The position numbers and the translations under genes were made by a program. 40,398 bases of DNA from Thioalkalivibrio sp. (GTDB lineage: Bacteria > Pseudomonadota > Gammaproteobacteria > Ectothiorhodospirales > Ectothiorhodospiraceae): positions 1-40,398 of the forward strand of contig SKJG01000107.1 in NCBI GenBank assembly GCA_007116035.1, written 5' to 3'. The notes below the pieces were generated by a model that was not told where the DNA came from, did not search any database, and saw only the letters and a list, made by a program, of their open reading frames with translations. This document shows, in pieces, positions 2,710 to 8,362 of this stretch. The first letter of the stretch is position 1; every line of letters begins with the position of its first letter.

Positions 2710-2836
2710 TCCCCACCTGGATAAGGCCACGGGTCAACCGCTTTCCCGCTTTCCGGCTTTCGCGGGATGGCGGACACGGTCCAGCGGTGTGTCCAGGGAT
2801 GCTGCGCTCGCGCGCGGGATGATCTATCATTCACCT

Positions 2837-2890
2837 GCGCCGATTTGAAACGATTCAGCTTGCGGGCGCCTGACAAATGCGGCTAAAGCG
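2837..2890 (+). promoter_or_regulatory. SAM-II riboswitch aptamer, copy 1
   Basis: The sequence matches the SAM-II (metA/SAM-alpha) pattern: a P1 strand, GATTTg..., gCTTGC, the P1 partner, tgAcAAAtGc and GCTAAA. P1 pairs GCGCC (2837-2841) with GGCGC (2865-2869). The loop starts GATTTGAAA and ends CTTGCG. The 3' segment GCTAAAGCG is at 2882-2890 and in the known fold takes part in the ligand-binding pseudoknot. P1 bases differ from copies 2 and 3 but keep pairing, which supports a real RNA. SAM-II elements switch genes off when S-adenosylmethionine is abundant. This copy is coupled to the terminator at 2902-2935. Confidence 0.85.
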
Positions 2891-2901
2891 ATTCCGACAG
2901 G

Positions 2902-2935
2902 AGCCTGCTTTAGCGAACGCTGAACAGGCTTTTTT
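2902..2935 (+). terminator. Intrinsic terminator, probable SAM-II expression platform
   Basis: AGCCTG (2902-2907) pairs with CAGGCT (2925-2930). The stem continues inward as TTTAGCG/CGCTGAA with one bulged C, and six T's run from 2930 to 2935. The bases GCTTTAGC (2907-2914) in the 5' arm are exactly complementary to GCTAAAGC (2882-2889) at the aptamer's 3' end. Ligand binding would hold the aptamer strand and let the terminator form; without ligand the strand could pair with the 5' arm and prevent termination. The pairing is seen in the sequence; the switching is inferred. Confidence 0.8.
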
Positions 2936-2956
2936 GTTGGGCCCACGGATGGGTGA

Positions 2957-3006
2957 CCGCCGATTTATGACCTACTTGCGGGCGGGATAGAAATACAGCT
3001 AAAGCG
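2957..3006 (+). promoter_or_regulatory. SAM-II riboswitch aptamer, copy 2
   Basis: A second aptamer lies 22 bases after the T-run of copy 1's terminator. P1 pairs CCGCC (2957-2961) with GGCGG (2981-2985), a compensated change from copy 1. The conserved loop start GATTTA, CTTGCG, the segment GATAGAAATACA and GCTAAAGCG (2998-3006) are all present. Downstream, GTGCCCC (about 3018) can pair with GGGGCGC (about 3054) just before the ribosome site of the gene at 3072. Unlike copy 3, no CGCTTTA sequence lies in that hairpin loop, so the switching device is less clear here. From CTTGCG onward it is nearly identical to copy 3. Confidence 0.85.
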
Positions 3007-3071
3007 GCGACGGTCCCGTGCCCCAGGATCTTCTCCCGCCGGATCTCCGATGGGGCGCATAGGAGACCGCG

Positions 3072-3263
3072 ATGAAGGCCATTCCCGCAGTGCCCGGGCG
3101 CGACCCGGACTTCCCGAGCCGTTCCGATTCCGAGAATCCCCGGCCGGCGCCCGCTGCCGCCGCCGGGAGCGTCTGGCTGCTGGACCCGTCCCGCATCGGG
3201 CATCTGCCCGCCTGCCTGCGGGCGCTGGGCGCGCAAAGGATGCACGAGGGGAGGGAGGACTGA
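3072..3263 (+). CDS. Small hypothetical protein, first gene of a three-gene cassette
   Basis: A 63-residue protein I do not recognise. It is rich in Pro, Ala and Arg in its first half (RPAPAAAAG) and ends in a short segment, DPSRIGHLPACLRALG, that could be helical. It starts at an ATG preceded by AGGAGA and stops one base before the next gene, which suggests co-translation. It lies directly downstream of SAM-II copy 2 and its hairpin. High-GC open frames of this length can be spurious; the ribosome site and tight linkage to the next gene are the main support. Confidence 0.5.
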   Translation: MKAIPAVPGRDPDFPSRSDSENPRPAPAAAAGSVWLLDPSRIGHLPACLRALGAQRMHEGRED

Positions 3264-3264
3264 C

Positions 3265-3585
3265 ATGTGGCCCTTCGCGACCCGCGGCAGCCGTTTCCTG
3301 GGCGATGCCGCCGCCCGCTACCCCAGCCGCCTCGAACCGCGCGACTTCGCCCGCAACGACGCGGTGATCAAGCTCTGGCTTCCCGAGAAGCTGCTCGCGG
3401 CGATCGACGTGCTCTGTGGCGCCCACGACGCCAGCCGCCCGGATGTGCTGCGCTGGATCCTGTTCGAGCACGCCCATGGCCGCACCGAGCTTGCACACCT
3501 GCGCCGCCGCGCCGGTCCCGAACCGCCTGCCGATGACGAGGCGGGACCTGATATCCGTTGCTCGCCCCAGCGGCGCGCCGCCTGA
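3265..3585 (+). CDS. Ribbon-helix-helix-like small protein
   Basis: A 106-residue protein. Residues about 31-75 look like a ribbon-helix-helix module: a beta-like strand VIKLWLPEKL, helix LLAAIDVLC, a turn with SRPDVLRWI, and a second helix ending FEHAHGR. Such proteins are usually dimeric DNA-binding regulators or antitoxins; which applies here is unknown. A GGAGGG ribosome site sits in the end of the preceding gene. The following gene starts 16 bases later and encodes a second protein of similar type. No toxin-like partner is obvious. Confidence 0.6.
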   Translation: MWPFATRGSRFLGDAAARYPSRLEPRDFARNDAVIKLWLPEKLLAAIDVLCGAHDASRPDVLRWILFEHAHGRTELAHLRRRAGPEPPADDEAGPDIRCSPQRRAA

Positions 3586-3601
3586 ACCGGGGAGGGAGAC
3601 G

Positions 3602-3865
3602 GTGAACCGAAATTACCCGTGGGAACCGCGGCGGCAGCCACTGTTCAGCACCGGCCGTGCCGTCAACGCCCACCATCTCGGCAAGGCCACCGAGAACGTG
3701 AAGCGCGAGGTCCCGCAGGCGCTGAAGCAGGAGCTCGAGACCCTCGCCGCTCAGGCGGGCGAGCCCCTGTCCGACTACCTCCGCGGCGTCCTCGCCCGGC
3801 AACTGCTGGGCGAGGGTTTCTACCGACGCTGGCAAGCAGCCCTCACCAAAGCCCGTACACAGTAG
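3602..3865 (+). CDS. Second ribbon-helix-helix-like small protein
   Basis: An 87-residue protein. I chose the GTG at 3602, preceded by GGGGAGGGAGA, because coding character begins there; the frame remains open upstream but overlaps the preceding gene. The middle (residues about 31-70) reads KREVPQALKQELETLA, then GEPLSDYLRGVLARQLLG: a strand-helix-helix order typical of RHH/CopG-like proteins. It may work with the protein encoded at 3265-3585. Its stop codon overlaps a REP-like palindrome. Function unknown. Confidence 0.6.
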   Translation: MNRNYPWEPRRQPLFSTGRAVNAHHLGKATENVKREVPQALKQELETLAAQAGEPLSDYLRGVLARQLLGEGFYRRWQAALTKARTQ

Positions 3866-3884
3866 GAGCGGCCTCTGGCCGCGA
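3862..3884 (+). repeat. REP-like palindrome
   Basis: GTAGGAGCGGCC...GGCCGCGAT contains a 6-bp stem, GCGGCC/GGCCGC, around TCT. The head GTAGGAGCGG and tail CGCGAT resemble repetitive extragenic palindromes of Pseudomonas-type genomes. It begins at the stop codon of the gene before it and could also protect or end that transcript. Confidence 0.5.
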
Positions 3885-3977
3885 TTGCGGTCGCCGCCAT
3901 ATGCGGGGATTTTCTCCCGCCCCAACCATGACAAGACTACCCTGACCACGATGAAGCACAGCCCCACGGACGGGGCG

Positions 3978-4028
3978 CCGCCGATTTAAGCACCAACTTG
4001 CGGGCGGGATAGAAATGCAGCTAAAGCG
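3978..4028 (+). promoter_or_regulatory. SAM-II riboswitch aptamer, copy 3
   Basis: P1 pairs CCGCC (3978-3982) with GGCGG (4003-4007). The loop begins GATTTAAGC and ends CTTGCG; then come GATAGAAATGCA and GCTAAAGCG (4020-4028). From CTTGCG through the following GCGACGGTCC it is nearly identical to copy 2, so the two are recent duplicates. It sits 63 bases upstream of the gene at 4092, with a hairpin between them that ends at the ribosome site. Confidence 0.85.
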
Positions 4029-4039
4029 GCGACGGTCCG

Positions 4040-4085
4040 AGGCCCCGGGATCGCCACTCGCTTTACACTCCTGGGGCCTGAGGGG
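4040..4085 (+). promoter_or_regulatory. Hairpin next to the ribosome site, probable SAM-II expression platform
   Basis: AGGCCCCGGG (4040-4049) pairs with CCTGGGGCCT (4070-4079), immediately followed by the ribosome site GAGGGG (4080-4085) for the ATG at 4092. The loop contains CGCTTTA (4059-4065), exactly complementary to TAAAGCG (4022-4028) of copy 3. Competition between these pairings could couple ligand binding to translation start. There is no T-run, so translational control is likelier than termination. The direction of control is inferred. Confidence 0.55.
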
Positions 4086-4091
4086 ATTGTC

Positions 4092-4739
4092 ATGAGCCTT
4101 CGTTGCAAGCAGGGCGACCTTTACCGCCCCTCCAGCTACTTCCGGCCCCAGCCACTGGAAGAGTACGTCCTGTCCCGCGTGAAGGGCGCCCTGGTCAAGG
4201 CGCACCTGCGTGAACTGCTGGACTGCGACCGGCACGACGAGGTCGCCCGCCTGCTACGCGAAGAGGGGGTTCCCGAAGACGAGTGTCGGGCACTGGGCAG
4301 CGTGCACCCGCTGTTCATGGGCGGCAACTACCTGCCCAAGCTCAGGCCCCGAGAAGTGGAGATCGCCCGGATCTTCATCCAGTCCACCACCGGGGATGTG
4401 ACCGCCGTGCACGCCCAGCCGCACGAAGGGCGCATCCGCTACCGGGTGGTGGATGAGTACAACGGCGACACCCTGAGAAAGAGCAAGGCCCGGTGCAAGT
4501 CGGACGTCCCGCTGACCCTCAACGAGTTGTACGACTTCTTCACCGGCGCCTGGCCATTGCACCAGGTGCTGGACATGAACTTCCAGGGCGACGTGGGGGG
4601 CATGCTCGGGTTCTTCGTCGCCGAGTTCGACTTCTACCCTGGCCTGGAAGCTTTGTGCCGGCAGCGAGTGCTGGAGGCCTTCCCGAAGCAGGACGAGGAC
4701 GAGCAGGAAGACGACGACGCCGGCGAGGTCGGGAACTGA
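4092..4739 (+). CDS. Conserved protein of unknown function
   Basis: A 215-residue soluble protein with no signal peptide or membrane segment. Recognisable blocks are GGNYLPKLRPREVEIARI (about 76-93), STTGDVTAVHA, YRVVDEYNGDT, LTLNELYDFF and VLDMNF. I believe these recur in hypothetical proteins of several proteobacteria, but I cannot name a family. The C-terminus is very acidic (DEDEQEDDDAGE). The ATG follows GAGGGG at good spacing, and the gene is preceded by SAM-II copy 3. Immediately after its TGA the same frame stays open for 39 codons with protein-like composition. Whether it relates to methionine or SAM metabolism is unknown. Confidence 0.7.
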   Translation: MSLRCKQGDLYRPSSYFRPQPLEEYVLSRVKGALVKAHLRELLDCDRHDEVARLLREEGVPEDECRALGSVHPLFMGGNYLPKLRPREVEIARIFIQSTTGDVTAVHAQPHEGRIRYRVVDEYNGDTLRKSKARCKSDVPLTLNELYDFFTGAWPLHQVLDMNFQGDVGGMLGFFVAEFDFYPGLEALCRQRVLEAFPKQDEDEQEDDDAGEVGN

Positions 4740-4859
4740 CCCGCCCCGGCGGATCCTAACGATTTCGCGGCCGAACTCCGCATCCCGGTGGAGGAAGCGA
4801 ACGCGATCGCAGAGGAAAACGGCTGGACCATCCGTTTCGTGCGGGAGGGTGCTGTATGA
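4740..4859 (+). other. In-frame coding-like fragment after the TGA of the preceding gene
   Basis: Directly after the stop at 4737-4739 the same frame continues for 39 codons to a TGA at 4857-4859. The central part reads IPVEEANAIAEENGWTIRF and looks like the end of a real protein domain. No start codon with a ribosome site is visible. It may be a relic of another gene or the lost end of the 4092 gene. Its stop overlaps the ATG of the metK relic. Confidence 0.35.
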
Positions 4860-5032
4860 GGCACGGCTCCCTACTGTTCACCTCCGAGTCGGTCTCCGAG
4901 GGACACCCGGCCAAGATCGCTGACTAGATCTCCGATCGTGTCCTCGACGCCTCTCTCGCCTGCGACCCGGACGCCTGGATCGCTTGCGAGGCCCTTTCTG
5001 GGAACGGACTGAAGGGGTGGCTCAGTCTGTGA
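4856..5032 (+). pseudogene. metK: metK 5' relic (S-adenosylmethionine synthetase)
   Basis: The first codons encode LFTSESVSEGHP, the near-invariant N-terminal signature of MetK. Next is AKIAD, where the family has DKIAD, so the conserved Asp is Ala. An in-frame TAG (4925-4927) then stands where the family has Gln (ADQISD). Reading on gives ISDRVLDA and DPDAWIACE, still aligned with MetK, before similarity ends near 4990; the frame stops at 5030-5032. Only about 45 of roughly 390 codons remain. The relic is dead by its nonsense codon and truncation. A functional metK must lie elsewhere. Confidence 0.85.
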
Positions 5033-6454: not shown

Positions 6455-8362
6455 GTGAGTGAGTCAAGTGCGCGCTACGGCTGGCAATCCGATCTTCCTG
6501 CGTTCGTGCGGGCGAGCCCCGCGGCTATCGAGGCGGCGCTGCTCCAGTTTCTGCAGGGTGCTTCCAGCCAGCAGATCACCAGTTGGCACGACTGCATCCG
6601 GTGGTTGCAGCGCGAGTACGATCGCTGTGTGCGGGAAGATTCGGCCGCCGAGACGTATTACACCCTCCTCGAGTATGAGCTGCCGCGCGACTTCCGGCGG
6701 CCCGATATCATCGTCCTTGAAGGTGGCACGGTGGTGGTGCTGGAGGTCAAGGGCCACGCGGGGGCAGGGCAGGCGGCCCGTGACCAGGTCGCGGGTTACG
6801 CGCGGGATCTGGCGGCCTACCACAGCGCCTGTGCCGATCGTTCCGTCTTGCCAGTGGTCGTTCCCTCGGACGGGCCGGCGCTGGTACAGGAGAAAGATGG
6901 CGTCTCGATCATCGGCCCGCACGGTGTGGCCCAATTCCTTCTGGACCACGCCGCCGTGCACAAGGGCCTACCCATCCGGCCGGACGACTTCCTCAATGAA
7001 GACGCCTATGCGCCACTGCCCACCATCGTCCAGGCTGCCCGCTCGATCTACGAACAGCGCCCGCTGCCCTTCATCAAACGAGCCCGGGCCAACACCGATC
7101 CAGCGCTTGAGGCGATCACCGACATCGCCCACCAAGCGGCCCGCACCAAGACCCGCCACCTCGTGCTGTTGAGCGGTATACCCGGCTCGGGCAAGACACT
7201 CGTTGGCCTGCAATTGGTGCACGCCGGTTGGTTGGACGATCTCGCAATCGAGCGCGGCGGACGCAAGCGCTCCCCGGCCGTGTACCTTTCGGGGAACGGT
7301 CCGCTCGTGGCCGTGCTTCAGGATGCCCTGAAGGGCGGAGCCGTACCGGGAAGCGTGTTCGTTCAGGACATCAAGAAGTATGTGGCCTACTACGCGCAAG
7401 GGCGCGGACGCACGCCTCCGGAACACCTGGTCGTGTTCGACGAGGCCCAGCGCGCCCACGACGCCGACCGTGTGGCCGAGGTGCACCGACAACCCCTGGG
7501 GTCCTCGGAGCCGGAGCATCTTCTGGAGTTCTGCTCGCGGATTCCCGAGTGGTGCGTTCTGGTCGCGCTGATTGGGGATGGCCAGGCGATTCATGTGGGC
7601 GAGGAGGTCGGCGTCGAGCTATGGCGCGAGGCCATCGCCGGTCGGCCTGCGTCCGAACAATGGAGCGTGCACGTGGCACCTCAAGTCGCCCCGTTGTTCA
7701 AGACCTGCCCGGTTCCAACGCACTGGCACGATGTGCTCAACCTGGACACCGAGATTCGCTTTCACCTCACACCGAAGGTGCACGCCTTCGTCGAGGCCTT
7801 GCTAGAAGGAACCGACCCGGCCGCGGCCCGCGAGATTGCCGATGAACTATACCAGGGTAACCATCGCTTCCTGGTCACACGCTCTCTGGAGGACGCGAAG
7901 GCCTATCTGCGCGAACGCTACGCAGACGCGCGCGAAGCACGATTCGGCTTGCTCGCCTCGTCGAAGGACAAGCTACTGATCAATTTCGGTGTCGACAACT
8001 CCTTCCAGACGACGAAGCGCCTCAGGGCCGGCCCATGGTACAACCGGCCGCCAGAGGATCCTCTGTCGTGCTGCCAACTCGATATGGTGGCGACCGAGTT
8101 TTCGTCCCAGGGGCTGGAACTGGACGCGGCCTTGCTTGCTTGGGGCTCAGATCTCATCCACGAGAACGGCGCCTGGTCGATCCGGATGTCACGGGGAACA
8201 CGAGGAAAGCTTCGCGACCCGAAGCAGTTGCGAAAGAACGTCTATCGTGTGCTCTTGACCCGGGGCCGCGACGGAACGGTGGTCTATGTCCCACCATCTC
8301 CACAGCTCGACGAGACATCACGATATCTGGTGGCCTGCGGGATGCGGCCACTGACGGACTAG
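6455..8362 (+). CDS. PD-(D/E)XK nuclease-like / DUF2075 helicase protein
   Basis: A 635-residue two-part protein. The N-terminal part has a nuclease-like core: RPDIIVL near residue 84 followed by VVVLEVKG near 98, the D...ExK pattern of PD-(D/E)XK enzymes. The C-terminal part is a P-loop ATPase with Walker A GIPGSGKT (near 245) and Walker B VVFDEAQR (near 329), then LIGDGQAI and a late LLTRGRDG segment. This is typical of DUF2075/Schlafen-group helicases. Such proteins occur in phage-defence islands, but their mechanism is poorly known. The start is a GTG at 6455. The next intact gene, at 8597, is on the same strand and may be its partner. Confidence 0.8.
   Translation: MSESSARYGWQSDLPAFVRASPAAIEAALLQFLQGASSQQITSWHDCIRWLQREYDRCVREDSAAETYYTLLEYELPRDFRRPDIIVLEGGTVVVLEVKGHAGAGQAARDQVAGYARDLAAYHSACADRSVLPVVVPSDGPALVQEKDGVSIIGPHGVAQFLLDHAAVHKGLPIRPDDFLNEDAYAPLPTIVQAARSIYEQRPLPFIKRARANTDPALEAITDIAHQAARTKTRHLVLLSGIPGSGKTLVGLQLVHAGWLDDLAIERGGRKRSPAVYLSGNGPLVAVLQDALKGGAVPGSVFVQDIKKYVAYYAQGRGRTPPEHLVVFDEAQRAHDADRVAEVHRQPLGSSEPEHLLEFCSRIPEWCVLVALIGDGQAIHVGEEVGVELWREAIAGRPASEQWSVHVAPQVAPLFKTCPVPTHWHDVLNLDTEIRFHLTPKVHAFVEALLEGTDPAAAREIADELYQGNHRFLVTRSLEDAKAYLRERYADAREARFGLLASSKDKLLINFGVDNSFQTTKRLRAGPWYNRPPEDPLSCCQLDMVATEFSSQGLELDAALLAWGSDLIHENGAWSIRMSRGTRGKLRDPKQLRKNVYRVLLTRGRDGTVVYVPPSPQLDETSRYLVACGMRPLTD

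Follow-up and report, generated by a model that had tools for sequence, protein, structure and literature searches.

Why should a stretch of about a kilobase carry three leaders of riboswitch appearance above genes that are not methionine genes? SAM riboswitches are known for their feedback control over the making of methionine and of the cofactor SAM, and the SAM-II riboswitch senses the latter. On contig C90 of a Thioalkalivibrio-like bacterium (genome size 3.03 Mb), three RNA elements, here called E1, E2 and E3, fall within 1.2 kb of the stretch analysed (the window, 40,398 nt, to which coordinates refer; all features are on the + strand unless stated otherwise). We propose that the three quite probably serve as OFF switches of SAM-II type for a single accessory operon, E1 acting on transcription and E2 and E3 on translation, and that a metK gene of the same module has decayed here.

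The aptamers of E1 (2837..2889), E2 (2957..3003) and E3 (3978..4025) share the layout of SAM-II (RF00521), P1, GAUUU, CUUGC and GCUAAA, and the pocket motifs GATTT, CTTGC and GCTAAA are intact in all three (in E1, GATTT begins at 2842 and CTTGC at 2859), so that a shared layout, the starting point of the preliminary description of this DNA, holds for every motif. P1 reads GCGCC/GGCGC in E1 (2837-2841/2865-2869) and CCGCC/GGCGG in both E2 (2957-2961/2981-2985) and E3 (3978-3982/4003-4007). This is the covariation within a single locus that had been claimed, but E3 duplicates E2, with 86% identity over 70 nt, and the locus therefore offers two independent kinds of element rather than three. A covariance model (R2) whose training set was 23 metZ leaders, all from genera other than that of the window, recovers E1 at 67.5 bits (E 3e-16), E2 at 48.9 bits (E 2.2e-11) and E3 at 53.3 bits (E 1.5e-12); it finds no further site in the window at E<=10, nor elsewhere in the genome at E<=1, where scoring covered 150 of the 1101 candidates of a first look. 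The exact motif pattern likewise has three forward matches in the genome, and its reversed control none. Rfam is more reserved. At gathering level a scan of the window reports a tRNA and nothing else; by an E-value threshold RF00521 (SAM_alpha) does find all three sites, at 22.5, 22.9 and 22.2 bits for E1, E2 and E3 (E 0.026-0.04 for a search space of 2401 bases and 4227 families), all short of the family's cut-off, 36 bits. The support for kinship with SAM-II comes from the sequence, the covarying P1 and the R2 model, and we describe the elements as SAM-II-like by anatomy, their RF00521 scores of 22-23 bits and their non-methionine targets setting them apart from that family.

E1 has the parts of a transcriptional switch. 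Its aptamer is followed by an intrinsic terminator, recognised from sequence and by folding (2902..2935; hairpin and T-run at -18.2 kcal/mol), whose 5' arm GCTTTAGC (2907-2914) complements, letter for letter, GCTAAAGC of the aptamer (2882-2889), which makes an antiterminator. A generic terminator scan of the window does not list this terminator, folding of the full E1 leader against shuffles gives a z of -1.84, and no sigma-70 consensus promoter was found upstream. In a related genome, G017, E1 and its terminator are kept in the same layout with different stem letters. More widely, 69 of 85 distinct E1-type copies in the loci collected carry a terminator and 53 of 85 the antiterminator complement, which, as defined here, is absent from the other 32; control stretches 400 nt downstream, in which copies were not made distinct, show a terminator in 3/92 and a complement in 13/92. 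Where E1-type copies stand in tandem, 35 of 40 have the terminator. On the opposite strand, the Burkholderia 'sRNA' candidate RF02424 (Bp2_287) matches the window at 2806-2934 (-) and three further leaders (L002, L003 and L005) at 20-36 bits, its cut-off being 70; the family may have been built from a SAM-II leader read in the wrong orientation.

E2 and E3 represent a divergent form, hereafter the E2-type. Neither is followed by a T-run, and a terminator accompanies just 4 of 60 E2-type copies. Downstream of each lies a predicted hairpin at the ribosome site, which is one departure from SAM-II: that of E2 spans 3009..3070 and includes AGGAG at 3061-3065, and that of E3, from folding, spans 4030..4090 and ends at the ribosome site. 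A ribosome site with a start codon was found 62-94 nt past GCTAAA in 58 of 65 E2-type places (50-100 nt searched). In 57 E2-type tails folded alone, the paired share of Shine-Dalgarno (SD) letters is 0.82 versus 0.64 in shuffles, and the folding energy -31.7 versus -25.1 kcal/mol; since these rows are related to one another, the SD-pairing enrichment serves as supportive evidence. In the window's own E2, half of the four SD letters are paired in the predicted fold, and the minimum-energy fold of E3 leaves the GAGG letters unpaired and pairs those just after them. Folding of the full leaders is no better than shuffles for E2 (z +0.50) and stands at z -1.50 for E3.

A second departure is an additional hairpin, P0, directly 5' of P1 (2941..2954, GCCCA/TGGGT, in E2; 3961..3976, GCCCC/GGGGC, in E3). 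Stems of at least 4 pairs occur here in 44 of 56 E2-type copies (mean score 11.4 versus 5.6 shuffled); the stem is absent from 7 of the 56, and the G017 copy has 3 pairs only. E1-type copies show no excess (16/82; score 3.9 versus 4.5 shuffled), and in some betaproteobacteria the stretch before P1 may be a promoter instead. Across 41 aligned E2-type leaders, 3 of the 5 P1 pairs change on both sides and 0 are broken. The P2 pseudoknot, CTT/AAG, can pair in 41/41 and never varies, and so lends no covariation support; similarly, the search pattern behind the set prescribes the pocket letters, whose conservation there is therefore not independent. The E2-type has ACTTGC where the SAM-II consensus has GCTTGC, and in 19 loci no E2-type copy passes the Rfam cut-off, which three E1-type copies do.

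Similar leaders occur in other genomes. The pattern GATTT..CTTGC..GCTAAA was present in 7 of 58 genomes, the window's included, with 0 matches for the reversed control, and in the five genomes of other families the leader precedes metZ, which by resemblance we take to encode O-succinylhomoserine sulfhydrylase. Two of these five metZ leaders, both gammaproteobacterial relatives, pass RF00521 at 42.1 and 40.8 bits; two fall short at 33.4 and 32.1 bits, and one (L007) is unlisted by RF00521 even at E<=1. A second model, R1, which included the window copies in its build, found relatives in 173 of 371 genomes. Among its best 30 loci (L048-L077), 24 lie before metZ, two before metK-like genes and one before a metF-like gene; the remaining three are the window, G017 and a further genome, G163. 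SAM-II-like leaders standing directly before genes that resemble metK or metF were seen at L058, L060 and L074, all in gammaproteobacteria. The motif was found, under strict filters, in 2 of 30 genomes of the genus, and the strictness of the filters in the 371-genome search means that absences there are no proof. As a local target metZ was considered and rejected: the window genome's own copy lies elsewhere (C118:81-1268), without a leader in the 70-80 nt available, and a metZ leader of this type was seen in none of 21 genus genomes inspected by eye, some with short upstream sequence.

The E2-type has a distribution of its own. Run over a collection of 84,980 species genomes, its pattern returned 57 genome stretches, 32 of them from Halomonas or Billgrantia and the others mostly from betaproteobacteria, gammaproteobacteria and Desulfobulbales, apart from a few metagenome-assembled genomes (MAGs) that bear other labels. 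Counting two window copies, three from further genomes and one viral copy, 65 E2-type places were compared (L089 and L115 being the same contig), and an E1-type element lies at most 180 nt upstream in 43 of the 65, at 110-113 nt in 32. This order, E1-type before E2-type, recurs in Gammaproteobacteria, Betaproteobacteria and Desulfobulbales. The E2-type leader also occurs on four environmental viral contigs (L155-L158), where an 84-residue ORF follows it. One gammaproteobacterium (G291, L084-L088) has 10 model matches, apparently five tandem loci, which precede a 98-residue ORF, itself followed by a protein of HD type by eye, and also a 350-residue protein. For the E3 leader, plasmid and phage collections gave one partial match, on a Paracoccus seriniphilus plasmid (L183 4001-4058; 81% across 57 query nt), just 5' of a 342-bp hypothetical gene, and none in the phage collection.

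The genes below the window's leaders were described earlier as two ribbon-helix-helix-like proteins and an uncharacterised 215-residue protein; the last stands, but a 63-residue ORF (3072..3263, from the ORF list), which is the gene directly below E2, had been missed. A search of 96 genomes lists many matches to it at E<=1, but apart from the ORF's own locus the only one below 1e-3 comes from G017, 68% identical and again situated under the tandem. Over the 63 codons the two ORFs agree at 30, differ silently at 13 and differ in the residue at 20 (dN 0.22, dS 0.69; in the C-terminal half 0.12 versus 1.05), and eleven silent changes fall in one replacement-free stretch, as they do in 1 of 20,000 shuffles; judged from this comparison, the ORF looks to be under selection. 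Kinship with the ~75-residue ORFs of Halomonas was rejected on a profile comparison (probability 0.1%). The ribbon-helix-helix labels are weak. The 106-residue protein (3265..3585) matches RHH_1 at E 0.0087, below cut-off, and a search of 279 genomes adds to the protein itself no more than three matches, all weak and partial (E 3e-4 to 0.01); the 87-residue protein (3602..3865, GTG start assumed) resembles RelB antitoxins, through NF048017, at E 0.0021 and 18.3 bits, the cut-off being 50.

The first gene below E3 encodes the 215-residue protein (4092..4739, from the ORF list), which has no match in Pfam, NCBIfam, PADLOC or PDB sequences; neither it nor the 106-residue protein has a match in the plasmid collection. 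Its relatives at L137 (62%), L096 (35%) and L101 (35%) each lie below a SAM-II-like leader and were fetched through that leader. Unbiased searches of 116 relatives and 398 genomes of the phylum return the window only, and the link of this family to the leader elsewhere consequently rests on the leader-fetched loci. Kinship of the window's proteins with Halomonas proteins of 71, 216 and 225 residues was also rejected (best E 0.16).

Elsewhere the E2-type precedes other genes again: ~75-residue proteins at 25 loci, a ~225-residue family, and MoxR-like ATPases, as first gene at L113, L115 and L134 and as a later gene at L127 (called by Pfam, with AAA_5 and AAA_3 over cut-off, for L113 only; by likeness for the other three). 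That genes new to SAM control had been captured, one of two origins first suggested for this locus, is supported as a pattern, the E2-type standing before non-methionine genes in many genomes. Further along the window (6455-8362, +) is a 635-residue Schlafen-type helicase, which PADLOC scores at 437 bits as the candidate defence protein PDC-S41; a betaproteobacterial MAG (L139) has a counterpart of 63% identity, and there an E2-type leader and a 215-family frame lie near the helicase.

The other suggested origin was that the leaders are fossils of a methionine locus, for which there is partial support. Below the 215-residue gene is an N-terminal metK remnant (4856..5032) with 48 residues aligned (4868-5011, 60% identity, E 1e-11) and an in-frame TAG at 4925-4927. 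Intact metK lies directly below E2-type leaders at L102, L104 and L123, and broken metK frames lie behind them in the window and at L110, L111, L148 and L120. The order E1, E2, small ORF, ORF, E3, ~220-residue ORF and metK remnant is common to the window and Halomonas daqiaonensis (L110, L111), the gene order being alike and the proteins not. The window genome's main metK adjoins a gene resembling adenosylhomocysteinase, and further metK-like genes are found on C163 and C37; the former (L165, G000:C163:15465-16622) is 73% identical to the E2-type-controlled metK of L102 and is without such a leader.

One might then read the leaders as decaying relics of a methionine or metK locus, useless by now, with the genes below inserted by chance. 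The stop-bearing remnant, the broken metK frames behind E2-type leaders elsewhere, scores below the SAM-II cut-off and a copy in just 2 of 30 genus genomes under strict filters all fit such a history. We nevertheless consider it unlikely, given that the pocket motifs are intact in three copies, that the E1 terminator stems differ between the window and G017 yet remain paired, that the 63-residue ORF looks selected, and that E1-type precedes E2-type in 43 of 65 places across Gamma- and Betaproteobacteria and Desulfobulbales. With a selected-looking ORF below E2 and the E1 terminator kept in two genomes, the leaders give no impression of being dead; the locus combines a decayed metK with accessory genes that SAM probably controls, and both origins first suggested are therefore partly right.

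In the OFF-switch reading that we prefer, E1 would decide whether the operon as a whole is transcribed. When SAM is bound, GCUAAAGC would stay in the E1 aptamer and the terminator would form; without SAM, GCUAAAGC would pair with GCUUUAGC, breaking the terminator and letting transcription continue. E2 would gate translation of the 63-residue ORF, and E3 that of the 215-residue protein, each through its ribosome-site hairpin, and if a single transcript spans the operon, low SAM would open all three. The module would formerly have held a metK paralogue, decayed in the window.

Parts of such a design have precedents. The available text of PMC9373788 describes the SAM-II of Sinorhizobium meliloti metZ in a predicted terminator form with a measured sRNA, and that of PMC9481103 reports 44 tandem SAM-II doublets, some pairing a terminator aptamer with a following ribosome-site aptamer. 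The window resembles these in the terminator of E1, and E2 may act at the ribosome site, SD pairing being enriched over 57 leaders, partial in E2 itself and off the GAGG letters in E3; it differs in a third aptamer within the operon and in the divergence of the second type. Tandem terminator-then-ribosome-site SAM-II pairs are thus already published; that text names neither organisms nor genes for the doublets, and some of the 44 may be the same elements. The apparent novelty lies in the E2-type variant and in the non-methionine genes that it precedes. Pelagibacter is reportedly an organism with a tandem of SAM-II and SAM-V. Such tandems are described, in the portions available of PMC9481103 and PMC6061858, as a transcription gate followed by a translation gate, the order proposed for the window, where the second element instead derives from SAM-II and the predicted place of the ribosome site is a hairpin of its own further downstream rather than P2a. 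A further comparison is the metXZ element of betaproteobacteria (Leyn 2014; PMC4239095, as far as its available text goes), a metX/metZ leader with a pseudoknot and a terminator-antiterminator; judged by description, it is probably kin to these leaders, although it is given there for methionine genes only, with one copy per genome, and the same text places SAM_alpha only in two alphaproteobacterial orders. In literature searches on SAM-II with metZ or Gammaproteobacteria, tandems, metK and SAM_alpha, the gene set was undescribed among the matches listed, with supplements and subscription papers outside that scope; a search with Halomonas found none. It was likewise undescribed in Thioalkalivibrio riboswitch literature, including the accessible part of PMC11109978, and in that of PMC12452182 on SAM_alpha.

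That SAM is the ligand of E1-E3 is suggested by the kept pocket letters and by E2-type leaders standing before metK. SAM-V is said to bind SAM almost identically to SAM-II (PMC6061858, in its available text), and the SAM-holding letters of SAM-V, when mapped by motif, are present in E1, E2 and E3 alike. It is conceivable that the E2-type answers to something else, such as SAH or another adenosyl compound, and that the tandem is a two-input gate, which its distance from the SAM-II consensus (ACTTGC for GCTTGC, P0 in most copies, no Rfam match at cut-off) would fit; we find this improbable, in view of those retained letters and of E2-type leaders before intact metK, where SAM feedback makes sense. 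Chance or repeat-derived resemblance, to which the missing gathering-level match and the duplication of E2 and E3 might point, can be set aside in the face of the R2 E-values, 0 control matches, P1 covariation and recurrence before metZ.

More speculatively, and at a low confidence, E2-type RNAs might constitute a SAM-sensing regulon of exchangeable accessory genes in defence-like islands (small proteins, MoxR-like ATPase with metallopeptidase, the 215-residue family, a metK paralogue) that would be turned on when SAM falls, for example through methionine shortage or a SAM-destroying phage enzyme. Beyond the window, a SAM-II-derived leader has spread recurrently to uncharacterised accessory genes, in Halomonas above all, in a divergent form that falls below the current Rfam threshold. 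In Halomonas and Thioalkalivibrio it would place a transcription gate and translation gates on an apparent single operon, and the E1-E2-E3 arrangement may thus offer a natural multi-gate SAM sensor. For the small proteins below these leaders, it gives a hint of function: they may do something that the cell wants at low SAM.
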